Position numbers and translations under genes: made by a program. Positions 5,654 through 62,440 of a stretch of DNA of 64,000 nucleotides are shown here, in pieces. Position 1 is the first letter of the stretch. Every line of letters begins with the position of its first letter. The notes beneath the pieces are model-generated. The model saw nothing but the letters and a program-made list of their open reading frames with translations, had not been told where the DNA came from and did no database searches. This stretch comes from Dictyobacter kobayashii (GTDB lineage Bacteria > Chloroflexota > Ktedonobacteria > Ktedonobacterales > Ktedonobacteraceae), in NCBI RefSeq assembly GCF_003967555.1, contig NZ_BIFS01000002.1, positions 1,178,001 to 1,242,000 on the forward strand, read 5' to 3'.

Positions 5654-6715
5654 ATGACACGCCTTCTGCTTATGCTCGAAAACAGGCAAAATCGCACATT
5701 GCTAGCTAACTGGCTCACTCATCACTACCAGGTTATTCAACAAGAACCTGGTACTCCACTGGTAGAGTCCTTTGATGTCTGCCTGGTTGATGGACCAACT
5801 TTAGATCGGCGCTGGGCTGAAATTCAAGCCCACAAAACCATGGAAGATCCAATCTTCCTGCCCGTTATACTTTTAACCTCCTACCGGGAGGTAGAGCTCA
5901 TTACACGCCATCTCTGGAAGACTATAGATGAATTGATTCGCTTACCCGTGGAAAAAACTGAACTGCAAGCGAGGGTAGAGATGCTCGTACGTACACGCGA
6001 ACTCTCACTGGCCCTGAAGTTGCGCAATAACGATCTGGAATCCTTTTTTCATGCGATGACACATGATCTGCGCGCTCCGTTGCGCGCAATCAAAGGTTTT
6101 GCTGAATTTCTAAATGATGAAGAAGGCGAAAAACTAACGAATAAAGGACAACGCTACCTCTCAAATATTCGCACAGCCACAGGGCAGATGCAGGAAATTA
6201 TCGATGGTCTGGTTGCTTTCGCCAGGGTAGGTTATAGTAATGGAGAATCCCAGGAAGTGGATCTCCAATTTTTAGTTGAACGCTGTATACAGCGCCTTTC
6301 CCCAATCATAGAGCAGCAAGAGGCTCAAGTTACGATTGAGCCTCCTTTACCAATAGTAGAAGGGCAGCCGTTTCTATTAAAGATGGCCATTACCAATCTA
6401 TTATCTAACGCACTCAAATTTATCAAACCAGGTGATCATCCCAATATACACATCCGCACGATAGAGCTTCAGGGTAGCTATCGACTAGAAGTAGAGGATC
6501 ACGGGATTGGCATCTCCTCCGAAAACCAGGCCAGCCTATTTCAGCCATTTACACAGTTTCATGGGATTGAAGAATACGAAGGCATCGGCCTGGGACTGGC
6601 GACAGTGCGCAAAGCAGTTGATTTGATGGGAGGACATGTTGGAGTACGCTCAGTAGTAGGGCAAGGGAGTGTATTCTGGATGGAGTTGCGCTCGGTAACG
6701 AAAGGAGAGCTATGA
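5654..6715 (+). CDS. Histidine kinase with N-terminal receiver-like domain
   Basis: 353 residues from ATG 5654 (a TTG at 5648 is the alternative). Residues 1-115 form a receiver-like domain (LLLMLENRQN, DVCLVDG with Asp 46). A HisKA domain follows with the phospho-acceptor at about His 137 (MTHDLRAPLRAIKGF), then the HATPase domain (N box NLLSNALKF, G1 DHGIGIS, G2 GIGLGLATVRKAV). No membrane segment, so the protein is cytoplasmic. It overlaps the next kinase by ATGA and follows the receiver protein by a few bases, so all are co-transcribed and may pass phosphate with the KaiC-like ATPase. Confidence 0.85.
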   Translation: MTRLLLMLENRQNRTLLANWLTHHYQVIQQEPGTPLVESFDVCLVDGPTLDRRWAEIQAHKTMEDPIFLPVILLTSYREVELITRHLWKTIDELIRLPVEKTELQARVEMLVRTRELSLALKLRNNDLESFFHAMTHDLRAPLRAIKGFAEFLNDEEGEKLTNKGQRYLSNIRTATGQMQEIIDGLVAFARVGYSNGESQEVDLQFLVERCIQRLSPIIEQQEAQVTIEPPLPIVEGQPFLLKMAITNLLSNALKFIKPGDHPNIHIRTIELQGSYRLEVEDHGIGISSENQASLFQPFTQFHGIEEYEGIGLGLATVRKAVDLMGGHVGVRSVVGQGSVFWMELRSVTKGEL

Positions 6716-8274
6716 AAGTCCTTCTCATCGATGATAATCCATTTGACCGCGAGTTAGTTAAACATAAGATGGAACAGGTCTGGCCAGATATTCAATGGAA
6801 AGAAGTAACTAACCAGCAGGCTTTTTCGGCTATTATGAAACAGCCAGACTTTGATTTCGTATTGACCGATTATCAGCTCAAATGGACCACCGGCATAGAT
6901 GTGCTCAAATTCATAATCAAATGCTGCCCCGACCTGCCCGTCTTCATGGTCACGGATACTGGCAGCGAAGAGCTGGCGGTTGAGGCCATGAAACTAGGCC
7001 TGAGCGATTATGTGCTCAAGACTCATCTCTCCAGACTACCGCTGGCGATTGAGGATTTTTTCCAGCGAAGACAGTTAAAGAACGAACATGAAGTATTGCA
7101 AAAGCAGATTCAGCAGGCTCAAAAAATGGAGAGCCTGGGCTTGCTGGTAAGTGGCCTGGCCCATGACTTTAATAATCTGTTAGCGGGCATGATGGGTTAT
7201 GCTCAACAAGGTATTAAGCATTCTTCCGCCAATCCCGAACTGGCAGAGTATTTCCAGCATATTTTCACGCGTGCAGAACAGGGTGCACGCATGACACGGC
7301 AACTGTTGACCTTCGCGCGCGGCAGCCATTTAGAGCCCATGCGTATTCAGATGAATACGTTAATTGCCCAGACATTGGAGTTCGTAGGCACTCTACTGGG
7401 TCCAACGATCAAAATAGAGTTTAATCCGGATGCTACCATCGCTGACCTCTATGCCGACCCTACACAGTTGGAACAGATGCTGGTGAATCTGTGTATTAAC
7501 GCACGCGATGCAATGCCACATGGTGGAACACTGAGGGTTGAAACCCATACCTTCCAGCTCCATAAAGGTAAACAGGATGCCCGTTTTACCGCTCAACCGG
7601 GACCTTATGTGCAAATCACGATAACCGATACCGGCGAAGGTATGTCGCCAGAGGTATTAGCGCGTCTCTTCGAACCATTCTTTACCACCAAAGATGTGGG
7701 TCGTGGTACCGGGCTCGGGCTCTCAGTAGTCTATGGCATCATTCAGCAACACCATGGTTTTATTGAAGTAACCAGCCAGCCAGGCAAAGGAACATGCTTC
7801 GCCCTCTATTTCCCGGTAGCAGAACAGGTCTCCCTGGAAGAAACAACCCTCAACGAAAGGGCAGCCTCCGAGAAGGTAACGCCATCTGTAAAGACACCCG
7901 GCAAAGTGACAATCCTGGTGGTAGAAGATGATCCGGATGTTCAACAGGTAATCTGTGAAGTCCTGCGCGAAGAGGGCTATACCATTCTACTGGCCAGCGA
8001 TGGCGAAGAAGGGCTACAGCTATTTCAGGAACATATCGCTACGATCCGCCTGGTCATAGCCGATATCATGATGCCTAAAATGCAAGGCAAAGAGTTCCAG
8101 CAACAGATACGCCGCCGCCAACCTGAAACAAAGGTGCTGGTCATGAGCGGCTATCAGCAAATCCAACTACAGCAAAAAGATCTGCTTGACCCTAATAGTG
8201 ACTTCTTGCAAAAGCCTTTCGACCTCGATATCCTGCTCGAAAAAGTGCACACCCTGATCAATATCAATAATTAA
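6712..8274 (+). CDS. Hybrid histidine kinase (REC-HisKA-HATPase-REC)
   Basis: 520 residues from ATG 6712, overlapping the previous stop (ATGA). The N-terminal receiver has LLIDDNPFD and Asp at about 53 (LTDYQL). HisKA has His at about 151 (GLAHDFNNLLAGMMGYA, the NtrB-like subclass). HATPase has NLCINARDAM (259-268), DTGEGM and GTGLGLSVVYG. The C-terminal receiver has VVEDDPDV (about 403-410) and Asp at about 451 (IADIMMPKM). It is soluble. Two receivers around one kinase core suggest multi-step phosphotransfer with the upstream receiver-kinase. Last gene of the operon. Confidence 0.88.
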   Translation: MKVLLIDDNPFDRELVKHKMEQVWPDIQWKEVTNQQAFSAIMKQPDFDFVLTDYQLKWTTGIDVLKFIIKCCPDLPVFMVTDTGSEELAVEAMKLGLSDYVLKTHLSRLPLAIEDFFQRRQLKNEHEVLQKQIQQAQKMESLGLLVSGLAHDFNNLLAGMMGYAQQGIKHSSANPELAEYFQHIFTRAEQGARMTRQLLTFARGSHLEPMRIQMNTLIAQTLEFVGTLLGPTIKIEFNPDATIADLYADPTQLEQMLVNLCINARDAMPHGGTLRVETHTFQLHKGKQDARFTAQPGPYVQITITDTGEGMSPEVLARLFEPFFTTKDVGRGTGLGLSVVYGIIQQHHGFIEVTSQPGKGTCFALYFPVAEQVSLEETTLNERAASEKVTPSVKTPGKVTILVVEDDPDVQQVICEVLREEGYTILLASDGEEGLQLFQEHIATIRLVIADIMMPKMQGKEFQQQIRRRQPETKVLVMSGYQQIQLQQKDLLDPNSDFLQKPFDLDILLEKVHTLININN

Positions 8275-8330
8275 ATCGCGGCAGGTCAGGCGCCTCCAGC
8301 ATTTTCGCACCTGCGGTGCGAAATTATGTT

Positions 8331-8385
8331 TATATTATGTGATGTAGAAAATGTGTGATGCACATTTTCTACATCACATAATATA
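8331..8385. repeat. Long perfect hairpin opening the 8.3-8.75 kb repeat array
   Basis: 25-bp arms (8331-8355 and 8361-8385) with a 5-nt loop TGATG. The right arm is also the start of the first 109-bp tandem copy. It lies 57 bases after the kinase stop and could also end that transcript. Confidence 0.85.
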
Positions 8386-8687
8386 AATGCTCGAATGTAT
8401 CTACGCACGTTCGCACAGCAACAAAGCCCGCACAATATTTTATAGGGGTGGTGGGTAACATGCGCTGCTCATATTTTCTACATCACATAATATAAAATGC
8501 TCGGATGTGCCTCCGCACGTCCGCACAGCAACAAGGCCCGCACAATATTTTATAGGGTGGTGGGGAACATGCGCTGCTCATATTTTCTACATCACATAAT
8601 ATAAAATGCTCGGATGTGCCTCCGCACGTCCGCACAGCAACAAGGCCCGCACAATATTTTATAGGGTGGTGGGGAACATGCGCCGTG
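8361..8687. repeat. Three tandem copies of a 109-bp unit
   Basis: Copies begin at 8361, 8470 and 8579, each opening with CATATTTTCTACATCACATA or a one-base variant. The second and third are almost identical; the first has a few substitutions (for example CGAATGTATCTACGCACGTT against CGGATGTGCCTCCGCACGTC). Each runs into the palindrome arm GGGTGGTGGGGAACATGCGC. No coding potential that makes sense on either strand. Confidence 0.9.
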
Positions 8688-8724
8688 CGCATGTTCCCCA
8701 CCACCCTATAAAATATTGTGCGGG
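8646..8724. repeat. 38-bp-arm perfect palindrome closing the array
   Basis: Arms 8646-8683 and 8687-8724 are perfect complements with a 3-nt centre CGT. The left arm is the end of tandem copy 3, so the right arm is an inverted copy of the unit end. A second near-palindrome (8721-8742, CGGGCGCGCATGCGCACGCC core) abuts it. AT-rich spacer without a gene follows to 8917. Confidence 0.88.
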
Positions 8725-8917
8725 CGCGCATGCGCACGCCCGAGATTTATGCTTGTCCAAATATATAAAGTGAGATATAATCATATAATAAAATAAAAAG
8801 ATGTAATGTGCTTATTTATCTTAACATTAGCGCTGAATCTAAAAATCAATACAAGAACAGTAAACCCACAGGATAAACAAGCATTAGTAGCTTAATTGCT
8901 CAGGAAGGAAGACACAA

Positions 8918-11551
8918 ATGTCTGAGAATCTAGCCAAAGAGAACCTGCCCACTACCGCACACGCCGAACCTCCTGAGCGGCTACTTCCCCGAGCACTAAC
9001 ACCACTGATCGGACGTAAAGATGAGATCGCGGCAGCACGCGCTTTGCTGCAAAGTCCAGAGATCCGGCTACTCACACTCACCGGGACCGGAGGAGTAGGC
9101 AAGACACGGCTGGGCGTGGAGGTTGCCGCAGAGCTCTACCCTGCTTTTCCGGATGGAGTGTACTTTATTTCACTGGCATCTATCCAGGAACCCGGACTTA
9201 TCATTCCATCCATAGCACATATGCTAGGACTGCGCGAGAGCGAGGGCGACGTTCTATTTGAGCACCTCAAAGCCTTTCTACATACCAGAGAAATGCTGCT
9301 GGTCCTGGACAACTTCGAACATATTCAGTCAGGCGCTCCATTGTTGACAGCGCTGCTGGCAGCCTGTCCATTACTCAAACTACTGGTCACCAGCCGCACC
9401 TTGTTACACGTGCAGGGCGAACAAGAATTTCAAGTCCAGCCATTAGCGCTCCCCGATCTACAGCAAGCACATTTTGAGCAGATCCAGCAGTCGCCAGCCA
9501 TTACGCTCTTCGTTCAGCGCGCCAGAGCTTTGAAGCTCGATTTTCAGTTAACCGAAAAAAATGCCACCACCATCGCCGCAATTTGCGCGCGCCTGGACGG
9601 TCTCCCCCTGGCACTGGAACTGGCGGCGGCGCGCATCAAAATCTTACCGCCCGAAGCCCTGCTTGGGCGCCTGGAACATCCACTGAAGCTCTTAAATGGT
9701 AGCCGCCAGGACGTTCCGGTGCGCCAGCGCAGCCTGCGCGAAACGCTAAACTGGAGCTATGACCTGCTTTCCCCTTCCGAAAAGCTCCTTTTTCAACGCC
9801 TGGCAGTCTTTATCCAGGGCAGCGAGCTTGAAGCCATTGAAGCCGTCGTATTGCATTTAGATGGAGATACAAACTCAGTTCTGGACGATATCTCTCACCT
9901 GCTAGACGAAAACCTGCTACAACAGAGCGAGTTTCAGGAACAAACGCCACGCTTCTGGATGCTGGAAACGATTCGTGAGTTCGCGCGAGAAAAACTAACT
10001 GCCAGTAATGAGTTTGAACGTATCCAGGAGGCACATGCAGCCTATTATGTACATCTGGCTGAACGGGCTGAACCAGAGCTATATCATCATCAGCAGAGCA
10101 GATGGCTGGCACACATGGAGCAAGAGCATGAAAATATTCGCGCCACCCTGATGTTTCTAAAGGAACGCAATGAGCTGGCTAAACTGGCCCACCTGGTAGC
10201 AACCCTTGGCTGGTTCTGGTATATGCATGGTTTCCTGCATGAAGGTCAACAATGGGCCGAATATGTGCTGAGCAACGGAGGACTTGAGCAGCTCCCCGAC
10301 ACGGAGCGCGGAAAGCTGATTTCAGGCTCGGGCGTGTTTGCAGGCTTTTCAGGACAAGGAGAACTGGCATTTAAACAGTGCCAGGAAAGCGTCCCATTCT
10401 GCAAGGCCGCCAGAGATACCCGCAATCTTTCGGCCTCAGTCTATATGCTCGTCCATAGCTTGCTCGTAATGGGTGATGTCGCGGCGGCGCGCGCGCTGGC
10501 TGAAGAGATGCTGGCATTTGCACGATCAGTAGGAGACATCTGGGCCATTGGTGCCCTCCATTGTATCCTGGGGTCGGTCACCCTGTTTGAGGGAGATTAC
10601 GAGCAGGCAGTCCATCTCCATGAAACGGGCATTGCCCTCTTTAGCGATGAGGGCGACCAATGCATGAATGGCCTCATCCATATGATGCTGGCTGATGTCG
10701 CCATCGCACAGGGGGACGAAGCGAGAGCCTATACACTGATACAGCAAGGAAAAGAACTATTTAAGCAGGTGGGAGCTACCTGGTCATTGGGTAGCTACTT
10801 CAGCATGTGGGGACAGATAGCGTTGACCAATAGACAGGAACTACGTGCCCAGTTTCTGCTACAACAAGCTCTGGCGGCCCAGCAACAAATGGGAGATCAA
10901 CAGGGCATGATCGGGAGCTATACCCTGCTGGTCCAGGTGGCCGCGCATCAACGTGACTACCTTATGACCTGCACCTTCGCCGAGCAAGCGGTACAGCTGG
11001 CACGAACGCTACAAGATAAGGAGGCCCTGATCAGCAGTCTGGAGGAACTGGCAAGCGTCATGGCCCGGCAGGAGAAAAATCTGGCGATTGGCGCGGCACG
11101 CTTATGGGGGACCATCGAACGCTTGCTGCAAGGTAGCGACGAAGAACAGATACAGCAGATCCATACGCAACGTGCACCCCTCGAAAAGATAGTGCGCACT
11201 ATTTTAAAGGAAAAAACATTTAGCAGCGCCTGGAATGAGGGGCAAAAGATGTCCCCGGAACAAGCAATAGCCGCCCTGAAACATACCAAACCAGTAGCAC
11301 GTGGAAAAAAAACCAGCAAGACAGTGATCGCCAACACAGAGAGTAGCCAGGGACACACGATTAAGCTGACCAAACGCGAACTTGAAGTCATCTGGCATCT
11401 CTCGCAAGGCCGCACCAATGCACAAATTGCCCAGGAACTGGTCATCACACCCGCCACCGTAAATGCTTACTTGCGCACTATCTATAGGAAACTGGATGTC
11501 ACCTCGCGCACCGGTGCCATAAGGGCAGCCATCAACCATAAAATTATCTAA
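8918..11551 (+). CDS. AfsR/LuxR-type transcriptional regulator (NB-ARC ATPase, TPR, LuxR HTH)
   Basis: 877 residues from ATG 8918 (AGGAAGGA upstream). It has an NB-ARC/STAND ATPase domain with Walker A GTGGVGKT (about 56-63) and Walker [10 protein letters not shown] (about 127-135), then [13 protein letters not shown] typical of the family. A long region of TPR-like helices (about 370-750) follows, then a C-terminal LuxR helix-turn-helix from about 817 ([20 protein letters not shown], then [14 protein letters not shown]). It probably senses a ligand through the TPR region and activates genes; no target can be named. It is monocistronic, flanked by AT-rich spacers. Confidence 0.9.
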
Positions 11552-25502: not shown

Positions 25503-25594
25503 TACTGTTCCTCTTTGGCGCCTGCGGCGCCGGGTTGGGAGTGTGGAGAGTGTATGGTGGGCGGCCGCAGCCGCCCACCATACACTCTCCACAC
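25503..25594. repeat. GC-rich head plus 24-bp-arm hairpin (repeat family member 1)
   Basis: Head CTCTTTGGCGCCTGCGGCGC (25511-25530) contains the palindrome GGCGCCTGCGGCGCC, then CGGGTTGGGA and a hairpin with perfect 24-bp arms (25541-25564 and 25571-25594) and a 6-nt loop. The same head is found at 49431-49450. Confidence 0.88.
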
Positions 25595-25912
25595 CGGAAA
25601 GAAGAGATATCCTAATTGCTTGTTCGTAATCTCCATCTTTACGGGAGGGAGGAGGCTGCGGCCGCCCACCATACACTCTCCACACCAGAAAGAAGGGGTA
25701 TCGTATCGCTTGCCCGTGATCTCCATCTTTATGGGAGGGAGGAGGTTGCGGCCGCCCACCATACACTCTCCACACCAGAAAGAAGGGGTATCGTATCGCT
25801 TGCCCGTGATCTCCATCTTTGCGGGAGGGAGGAGGCTGCGGCCGCCCATCATACACTCTCCACACCAGAAAGAAGGGGTATCGTATCGCTTGCCAGTGAT
25901 CTCTGGACGAGC
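25571..25912. repeat. Four tandem copies of a 90-91-bp unit
   Basis: Units start at 25571, 25662, 25752 and 25842, each opening CCGCCCACCATACACTCTCC (the fourth has one change). Unit 1 differs most; units 2 and 3 are almost identical; unit 4 is cut short at about 25905. Each unit starts with the right arm of the preceding hairpin. Because 90 is divisible by 3, both strands stay open for over 500 bases, which makes false ORFs. Confidence 0.9.
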
Positions 25913-43536: not shown

Positions 43537-43683
43537 GCGAGGTGTAAAGCGGCCGCAAGGGCCGCACCTACATATATCCATTAAAGCGAGGTGTAAAGCG
43601 GCCGCAAGGGCCGCACCTACATATATCCATTAAAGCGAGGTGTAAAGCGGCCGCAAGGGCCGCACCTACGAGGCCTCACGGGC
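43537..43683. repeat. Three tandem copies of a 49-bp hairpin repeat
   Basis: Copies start at 43537, 43586 and 43635 with GCGAGGTGTAAAGCGGCCGC, each followed by AAGGGCCGCACCTAC. Within each, GCGGCC...GGCCGC and AGGTG...CACCT pair as a hairpin. The third copy supplies the TAG stop codon (43666-43668) of the GH2 gene, so the array reaches the end of the coding sequence. Confidence 0.9.
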
Positions 43684-49424: not shown

Positions 49425-49504
49425 TTTGGCGCCTGCGGCGCCGGGTTGGGAATGTGGGGTGTGGCTGGTGGGCGGCCGCGGCCGCCCACCAGCCACACCC
49501 CACA
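49425..49504. repeat. GC-rich head plus 52-bp perfect palindrome (repeat family member 2)
   Basis: The head CTCTTTGGCGCCTGCGGCGC followed by CGGGTTGGGA is identical to that at 25511. A perfect palindrome with 26-bp arms (49453-49478 and 49479-49504) follows. Arm sequence differs from the 25.5-kb copy (CTGGTGGGCGGC against TATGGTGGGCGGC and neighbours), yet pairing is perfect in each. There is only one unit here, with no tandem copies. It lies between the sugar operon and lacI. Confidence 0.88.
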
Positions 49505-62385: not shown

Positions 62386-62440
62386 TTTCTTGTGTGGTAC
62401 AAAAAGTGCGCATAGCGCACTTTTTGCACCACACAAGAAA
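62386..62440. repeat. 25-bp-arm hairpin in the spacer at 62.4 kb
   Basis: Arms 62386-62410 and 62416-62440 pair with one mismatch around loop CATAG; arm core TTCTTGTGTGGTACAAAAAG. A GC-rich patch with alternating GCGC (62341-62379) precedes it. The rest of the 62011-62544 spacer holds no gene I can support. Confidence 0.8.

Follow-up and report, generated by a model that had tools for sequence, protein, structure and literature searches.

A tandem array between two perfect hairpins and a dispersed family of MITE hairpins in Dictyobacter kobayashii

The analysed stretch of 64 kb (hereafter the window) from the soil bacterium Dictyobacter kobayashii carries a tandem array in the 643-bp gap between two genes, encoding a hybrid histidine kinase/response regulator (6712–8274) and an NB-ARC/LuxR-type regulator (8918–11551). 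The parts of the array are ordered A [A' spacer B]x3 B', i.e. two perfect hairpins enclose three 109-bp units, and while the outer arms A and B' are single-copy, the inner arms A' and B are repeated. This order and its coordinates had been described in the earlier note and were borne out; the arm lengths it gave, 25 and 38 bp, were slightly short of the 27 and 39 bp measured here. The window sequence comes from a 2-contig assembly and the copy number of the array is taken as assembled. The features of the locus are:

8303–8323, no strand: short inverted box TTTCGCACCTGCGGTGCGAAA, a terminator-like 9-bp stem also present beside the main hairpin of related MITEs
8329–8355, + strand: outer arm A of the left hairpin, single copy (covariance model match G000:C2:1186329-1186387)
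8356–8465, + strand: unit 1, tip to tip, with loop, A' (8361–8387), spacer and a B copy
8466–8574, + strand: unit 2, 109 bp, tip to tip
8575–8683, + strand: unit 3, 109 bp, whose B arm (8645–8683) pairs with B'
8645–8725, no strand: right hairpin, with B at 8645–8683, loop CGT and single-copy B' at 8687–8725
8726–8743, no strand: G+C-rich box GCGCATGCGCACGCCCG, read from the sequence, which flanks related hairpins as well

Hairpin A/A' (8329–8355/8361–8387) has 27-bp arms and a 5-nt loop, and hairpin B/B' (8645–8683/8687–8725) has 39-bp arms and a 3-nt loop; both are 100% complementary, with RNA fold energies of −36 and −78 kcal/mol, respectively. Tandem Repeats Finder (TRF) reports a period of 109, ~2.9 copies and a score of 575. 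With units delimited from tip to tip, the second and third match at 109/109 positions and the first differs from them at about a dozen; at each junction the tip of B meets that of A'. Rfam gave no match above the gathering score anywhere in the 64-kb window.

Hairpin A is a member of a dispersed family and the 8.3-kb locus is not unique. A 410-bp query from the locus had 71 matches in the 8.85-Mb genome (2 contigs), and most of the matched loci carry perfect 22–48-bp hairpins of the theme TTTTATAnTGTGGTGTAGAAAATGCGC and have the flanking boxes in common; box TTTCGCACCTGCGGTGCGAAA also adjoins hairpins at other loci. A covariance model built from 48 family loci placed the family at no fewer than 75 loci in this genome, and across 61 genomes its matches were restricted to this genus and one other. 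The window holds these further hairpins, the first two of which belong to a second family:

25541–25903, + strand: hairpin of the second family (GTGTGGAGnGTG..GGCGGC); 90-bp units form an array on one side of it, running from the hairpin tip
49453–49504, no strand: second-family hairpin, a 26-bp perfect palindrome with no array
62386–62440, no strand: hairpin of the same family as hairpin A, found with the covariance model, with 26-bp arms and one mismatch

Dispersed elements with long perfect hairpins number hundreds in the host genome. In a 1.2-Mb sample chosen regardless of hairpin content, 154 hairpins reached the cut-off score of 18 (about 13 per 100 kb), which extrapolates to about 1,100 in the whole genome. 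Simulation with a Markov model of matching composition yielded none, even at scores of 12–14. Densities of 5–25 per 100 kb were found in three congeners (G001, G002 and G004) and of 22 per 100 kb in a member of another genus (G020). Samples from two further genera and a 50-kb stretch of E. coli had no hairpins, and the few in G003 (~2 per 100 kb) and G010 (~5 per 100 kb) are shorter and make up no family. Hairpins are mostly intergenic, enriched between convergent genes and depleted between divergent ones, and in co-directional gene pairs they lie near the stop of the upstream gene. These are terminator positions, and a passive role in termination is possible, judging by location. Outside both main families, 72 loci in the regions C1:2.0–2.4, C1:4.0–4.4 and C2:1.0–1.4 Mb carry hairpins with 18–38-bp arms, 58 of them perfect, and many resemble unusually long intrinsic terminators.

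Complete copies of the hairpin A family measure ~200 bp and consist of the ends GAATGTGTCTTACTCCCAT around a central hairpin, bordered by 3-bp TNA duplications. We found 17 pairs of terminal repeats; nearly all are 156–215 bp apart and enclose one family hairpin, and two pairs span two adjacent elements. The target duplications are identical in six elements, with near matches in others. The same terminal repeats bound a 1.1-kb IS5-family element (NF033580, PF13340/PF01609) in the same genome, which has two overlapping reading frames and five near-identical copies. Because the ends are shared, the hairpin family is a MITE family of this resident IS5-family element. The copy at L067:11724-12803 encodes the transposase in two overlapping frames, and the remaining near-identical copies have a stop within the second transposase frame. 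Around 8200–8850 neither terminal repeats nor a target duplication was found, and the left hairpin and flanking boxes alone persist, so that the MITE origin of the window copy rests on these. The window copy is probably a decayed intergenic element of the MITE type, its left hairpin from the dispersed family and its right one of similar build, a reading that we hold jointly with the template switching and tip-to-tip amplification discussed below.

The two arms of these hairpins change together. Within loci, three mismatches were counted in 2403 paired positions, and between loci arms diverge by ~29% on average. Since hairpin searches favour perfect stems, we also scanned with a motif of one arm only; of 100 matches, 66 had a partner arm with 0–1 mismatches and six a partner with 3–5, and in the remainder the partner had at least seven mismatches and counts as absent (chance matches, array copies or decayed arms). 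The alignment contains 212 two-sided changes versus eight one-sided ones, six of which fall at the two tip pairs. In congener G001 there are 41 two-sided changes and zero G.T intermediates, and young copies differ at single positions in both arms at once. Moreover, MITE copies of G001 with identical flanks have the 3-nt loop inverted (TAT/ATA and TTC/GAA), five such pairs being otherwise identical over 116 nt. Some of these flips could be assembly errors, as G001 is a draft assembly; both loop orientations are also present in the 2-contig host genome. The G001 loop-flip copies (L192-L199, L091-L095) have spread recently, and their loop seemingly flips faster than point mutation. Homogenisation of arms together with inversion of the spacer is the documented signature of template switching by DNA polymerase (PMC8604942; PMC8794818), and this combination strongly supports quasipalindrome template switching as what keeps arms identical within loci. 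Selection for a perfect DNA structure could contribute to arm identity.

Arrays that end in hairpin tips recur elsewhere. Among 243 hairpins in 1.2 Mb of the host genome and 480 kb of G004, 26 are accompanied within 500 bp by extra direct copies of a single arm (59 in total), and whole-hairpin copies are absent throughout, which indicates that duplications break inside hairpins. Most edges of the arm copies are no more than about 12 nt from the hairpin tip. That all copies are on the arm's own side is expected for any break within a hairpin; what carries information is that no whole hairpin was copied. TRF array edges coincided with tips 11 times versus 2.3 expected (maximum of 8 in 2000 slides), which is only moderately significant, as TRF overruns tips where A resembles B and stops early at a diverged first unit; the count of single-arm copies was therefore used in its place. 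Arrays capped at both ends are found in the host at C1:2048.7 kb (unit of 94 bp), 2239.4 kb (89) and 4025.6 kb (84) and in L022, and in G004 at 2371.0 kb (unit of 95) and 2644.3 kb (88); one-ended arrays outnumber them. The junctions at C1:4025.6 kb and at G004 2644.3 kb overlap by GTGC or GCGC, the tip sequence of both hairpins, and those at 2239.4 kb and 25.5 kb show inverted loops.

In G004, the orthologue of gene 6712–8274 (83% identical) is likewise followed by a hairpin-capped array (L117:10957-11470), made of more than five copies of a 95-bp unit of unrelated sequence, and there the flanking boxes are ordered differently. On sequence comparison, this suggests that the same intergenic place may have been amplified independently in two species. 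The layout is thus seen repeatedly, at independent loci whose units are unrelated and in another species, with breakpoints inside hairpins, in agreement with the proposal that one amplifying mechanism acts at hairpins. The 25.5-kb array, which the earlier note had offered as a second case of the same layout, is a weaker comparison: its units (25563–25903) do start at a hairpin (25541–25594), but this left hairpin is its only cap and the right end is bare; moreover, the hairpin is of a different family, whose other loci have the ~90-bp unit in common. Second-family arrays (25563–25903; C1:2064.8 kb; C2:1039.6 kb) share a unit of ~87–90 bp and are therefore not independent events, and array and hairpin seem to travel together in this family. 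In G020 (L221-L228), 160 kb contain 36 long hairpins, 28 of them perfect and forming families of their own (tips ..GCTGGCAGCC), and zero tandem arrays were found at them; hairpins alone are therefore insufficient for arrays.

In our reading, template switching is likely to be what keeps MITE hairpins perfect and sometimes amplifies them tip to tip. The family has spread as ~200-bp MITEs bearing the terminal repeats of the resident IS5-family element. The polymerase would copy one arm using the other as template, by which the arms stay identical and the loop flips. A switch between the tips of two neighbouring hairpins, aided by the GTGC/GCGC tip common to both, would duplicate the tip-to-tip segment, giving A [A' spacer B]n B', in which n could later be altered by unequal exchange or slippage. 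The tandem duplication itself is what we infer to be a template switch from tip to tip, and once two copies exist an array can grow by ordinary recombination. The array is explicable without any cellular function. The slippage suggested in the earlier note comes close to such switching at hairpin tips; its other suggestion, rolling replication through a cruciform, found no support, since rolling-hairpin replication gives inverted concatemers and the units here are all direct. Its interpretation as a whole is partly supported; it missed the dispersed MITE family of hairpin A and the co-variation of the arms.

We weighed several other explanations for perfect stems and arrays. Selection on an RNA hairpin, acting as a terminator or an RNA-stabilising element, could keep the stems perfect, the arrays being incidental. 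The intergenic location of the hairpins, their enrichment between convergent and depletion between divergent genes and their proximity to upstream stops fit such a role, as do the strength of the stems (−36 kcal/mol for A and −78 for B) and the resemblance of many unique hairpins to long terminators. Under RNA selection, however, intermediates are expected, and G-U pairs and one-sided changes are nearly absent outside the tip; the stems are far longer than a terminator requires, and neither the flipped loops between otherwise identical copies nor the tip junctions are accounted for, so we regard RNA selection as unlikely. Staggered nicks at the tips of two extruded cruciforms, made by a tip-cutting nuclease and followed by fill-in and end joining, would also duplicate the segment between tips and predict both the tip-to-tip units and the asymmetric single-arm copies that were observed. 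Nicking leaves the shared GTGC/GCGC junctions, the inverted junction loops and the identity of the arms unexplained, however, and a tip nuclease was not found, sbcD-like genes being weak and alike in relatives; we consider it improbable, about to the same degree as RNA selection.

An array that came first, with hairpins made later at both of its ends when the terminal units folded back and were copied, is conceivable in that fold-back synthesis can make a perfect hairpin in one step (PMC8794818). It is very improbable, as counterparts of hairpin A stand array-free at many loci with MITE boxes on both sides and arm copies accompany only 26 of 243 hairpins. Least credible of all is an assembly artefact: unit 1 is not identical to units 2 and 3, and comparable arrays with other units are present at numerous loci, also in an independent genome. 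Loss of palindrome-processing nucleases was rejected as a cause; xseA was present in 25 of 25 genomes, SbcD-like matches were weak and equal in all, and neither gene distinguished this genus from its relatives among these genomes. Beyond template switching as such, we entertain tentatively that minisatellites in these bacteria are founded by a distinct amplification process, driven by an enzyme or inherent in replication, for which hairpin tips serve as specific start and end points, with mobile hairpins seeding the arrays. Such a process would mean that the same intergenic site is amplified independently in different species and that arrays are seeded at new loci.

The structure is real and recurrent, and its parts are of known kinds: a MITE, a template-switch hairpin and a minisatellite. 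Quasipalindrome template-switch mutation (the Ripley model; in yeast, PMC8604942; in RNA stems, PMC8794818) shares with the present hairpins the one-step identity of arms, a loop inverted between perfect arms and tip pairs that are least corrected. Unlike the known cases, the changes seen here are genome-wide, on mobile-element hairpins of 20–48 bp, and accompanied by head-to-tail arrays bounded by hairpin tips. Bacterial IS5-family MITEs are likewise ~200 bp long and gene-free, occur in many intergenic copies and have terminal repeats of a resident IS and 3-bp TNA duplications; they differ in that here a long perfect hairpin of fast-changing sequence lies in the centre and the window copy has no ends. 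BrickBuilt, a MITE with a minisatellite from Porphyromonas gingivalis (PMC4596501), also has tandem units in an intergenic MITE-like element, but its unit, of 23 bp, is a common one and its inverted ends are small, whereas here the unit is locus-specific and the ends are hairpin tips. A non-exhaustive search of the open-access literature found no earlier report of arrays bounded by hairpin tips.

The origin and upkeep of perfect stems and the birth of minisatellites are old questions, and the debate has usually had to rely on individual events. In this genus, natural hairpins exist by the hundred, with arms that change jointly in one step and loops that flip between otherwise identical copies, and dozens of arrays have ends that mark copying jumps. 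If our reading is true, these genomes would serve as a natural laboratory in which to study template switching, and two-sided changes ('covariation') in stems of this kind would not necessarily imply selection on RNA structure.

REP/BIME/REPIN elements with their RAYT transposase (PMC2817692, PMC3116915) also form many intergenic palindromes, some of them clustered. Unlike the present units, the hairpins of BIMEs alternate in orientation, and the one RAYT-like gene of this genome stands among a different short palindrome. This gene (C2:2575014), whose match to NF047646 is just below the cut-off, is flanked by a different repeat, and an origin as REP/REPIN mobilised by RAYT was rejected. Palindromes resembling those that flank it (L090) are found within the window at 43537–43669, where three near-complete identical 49-bp units each contain a short palindrome (GCGGCCGCAAGGGCCGC).
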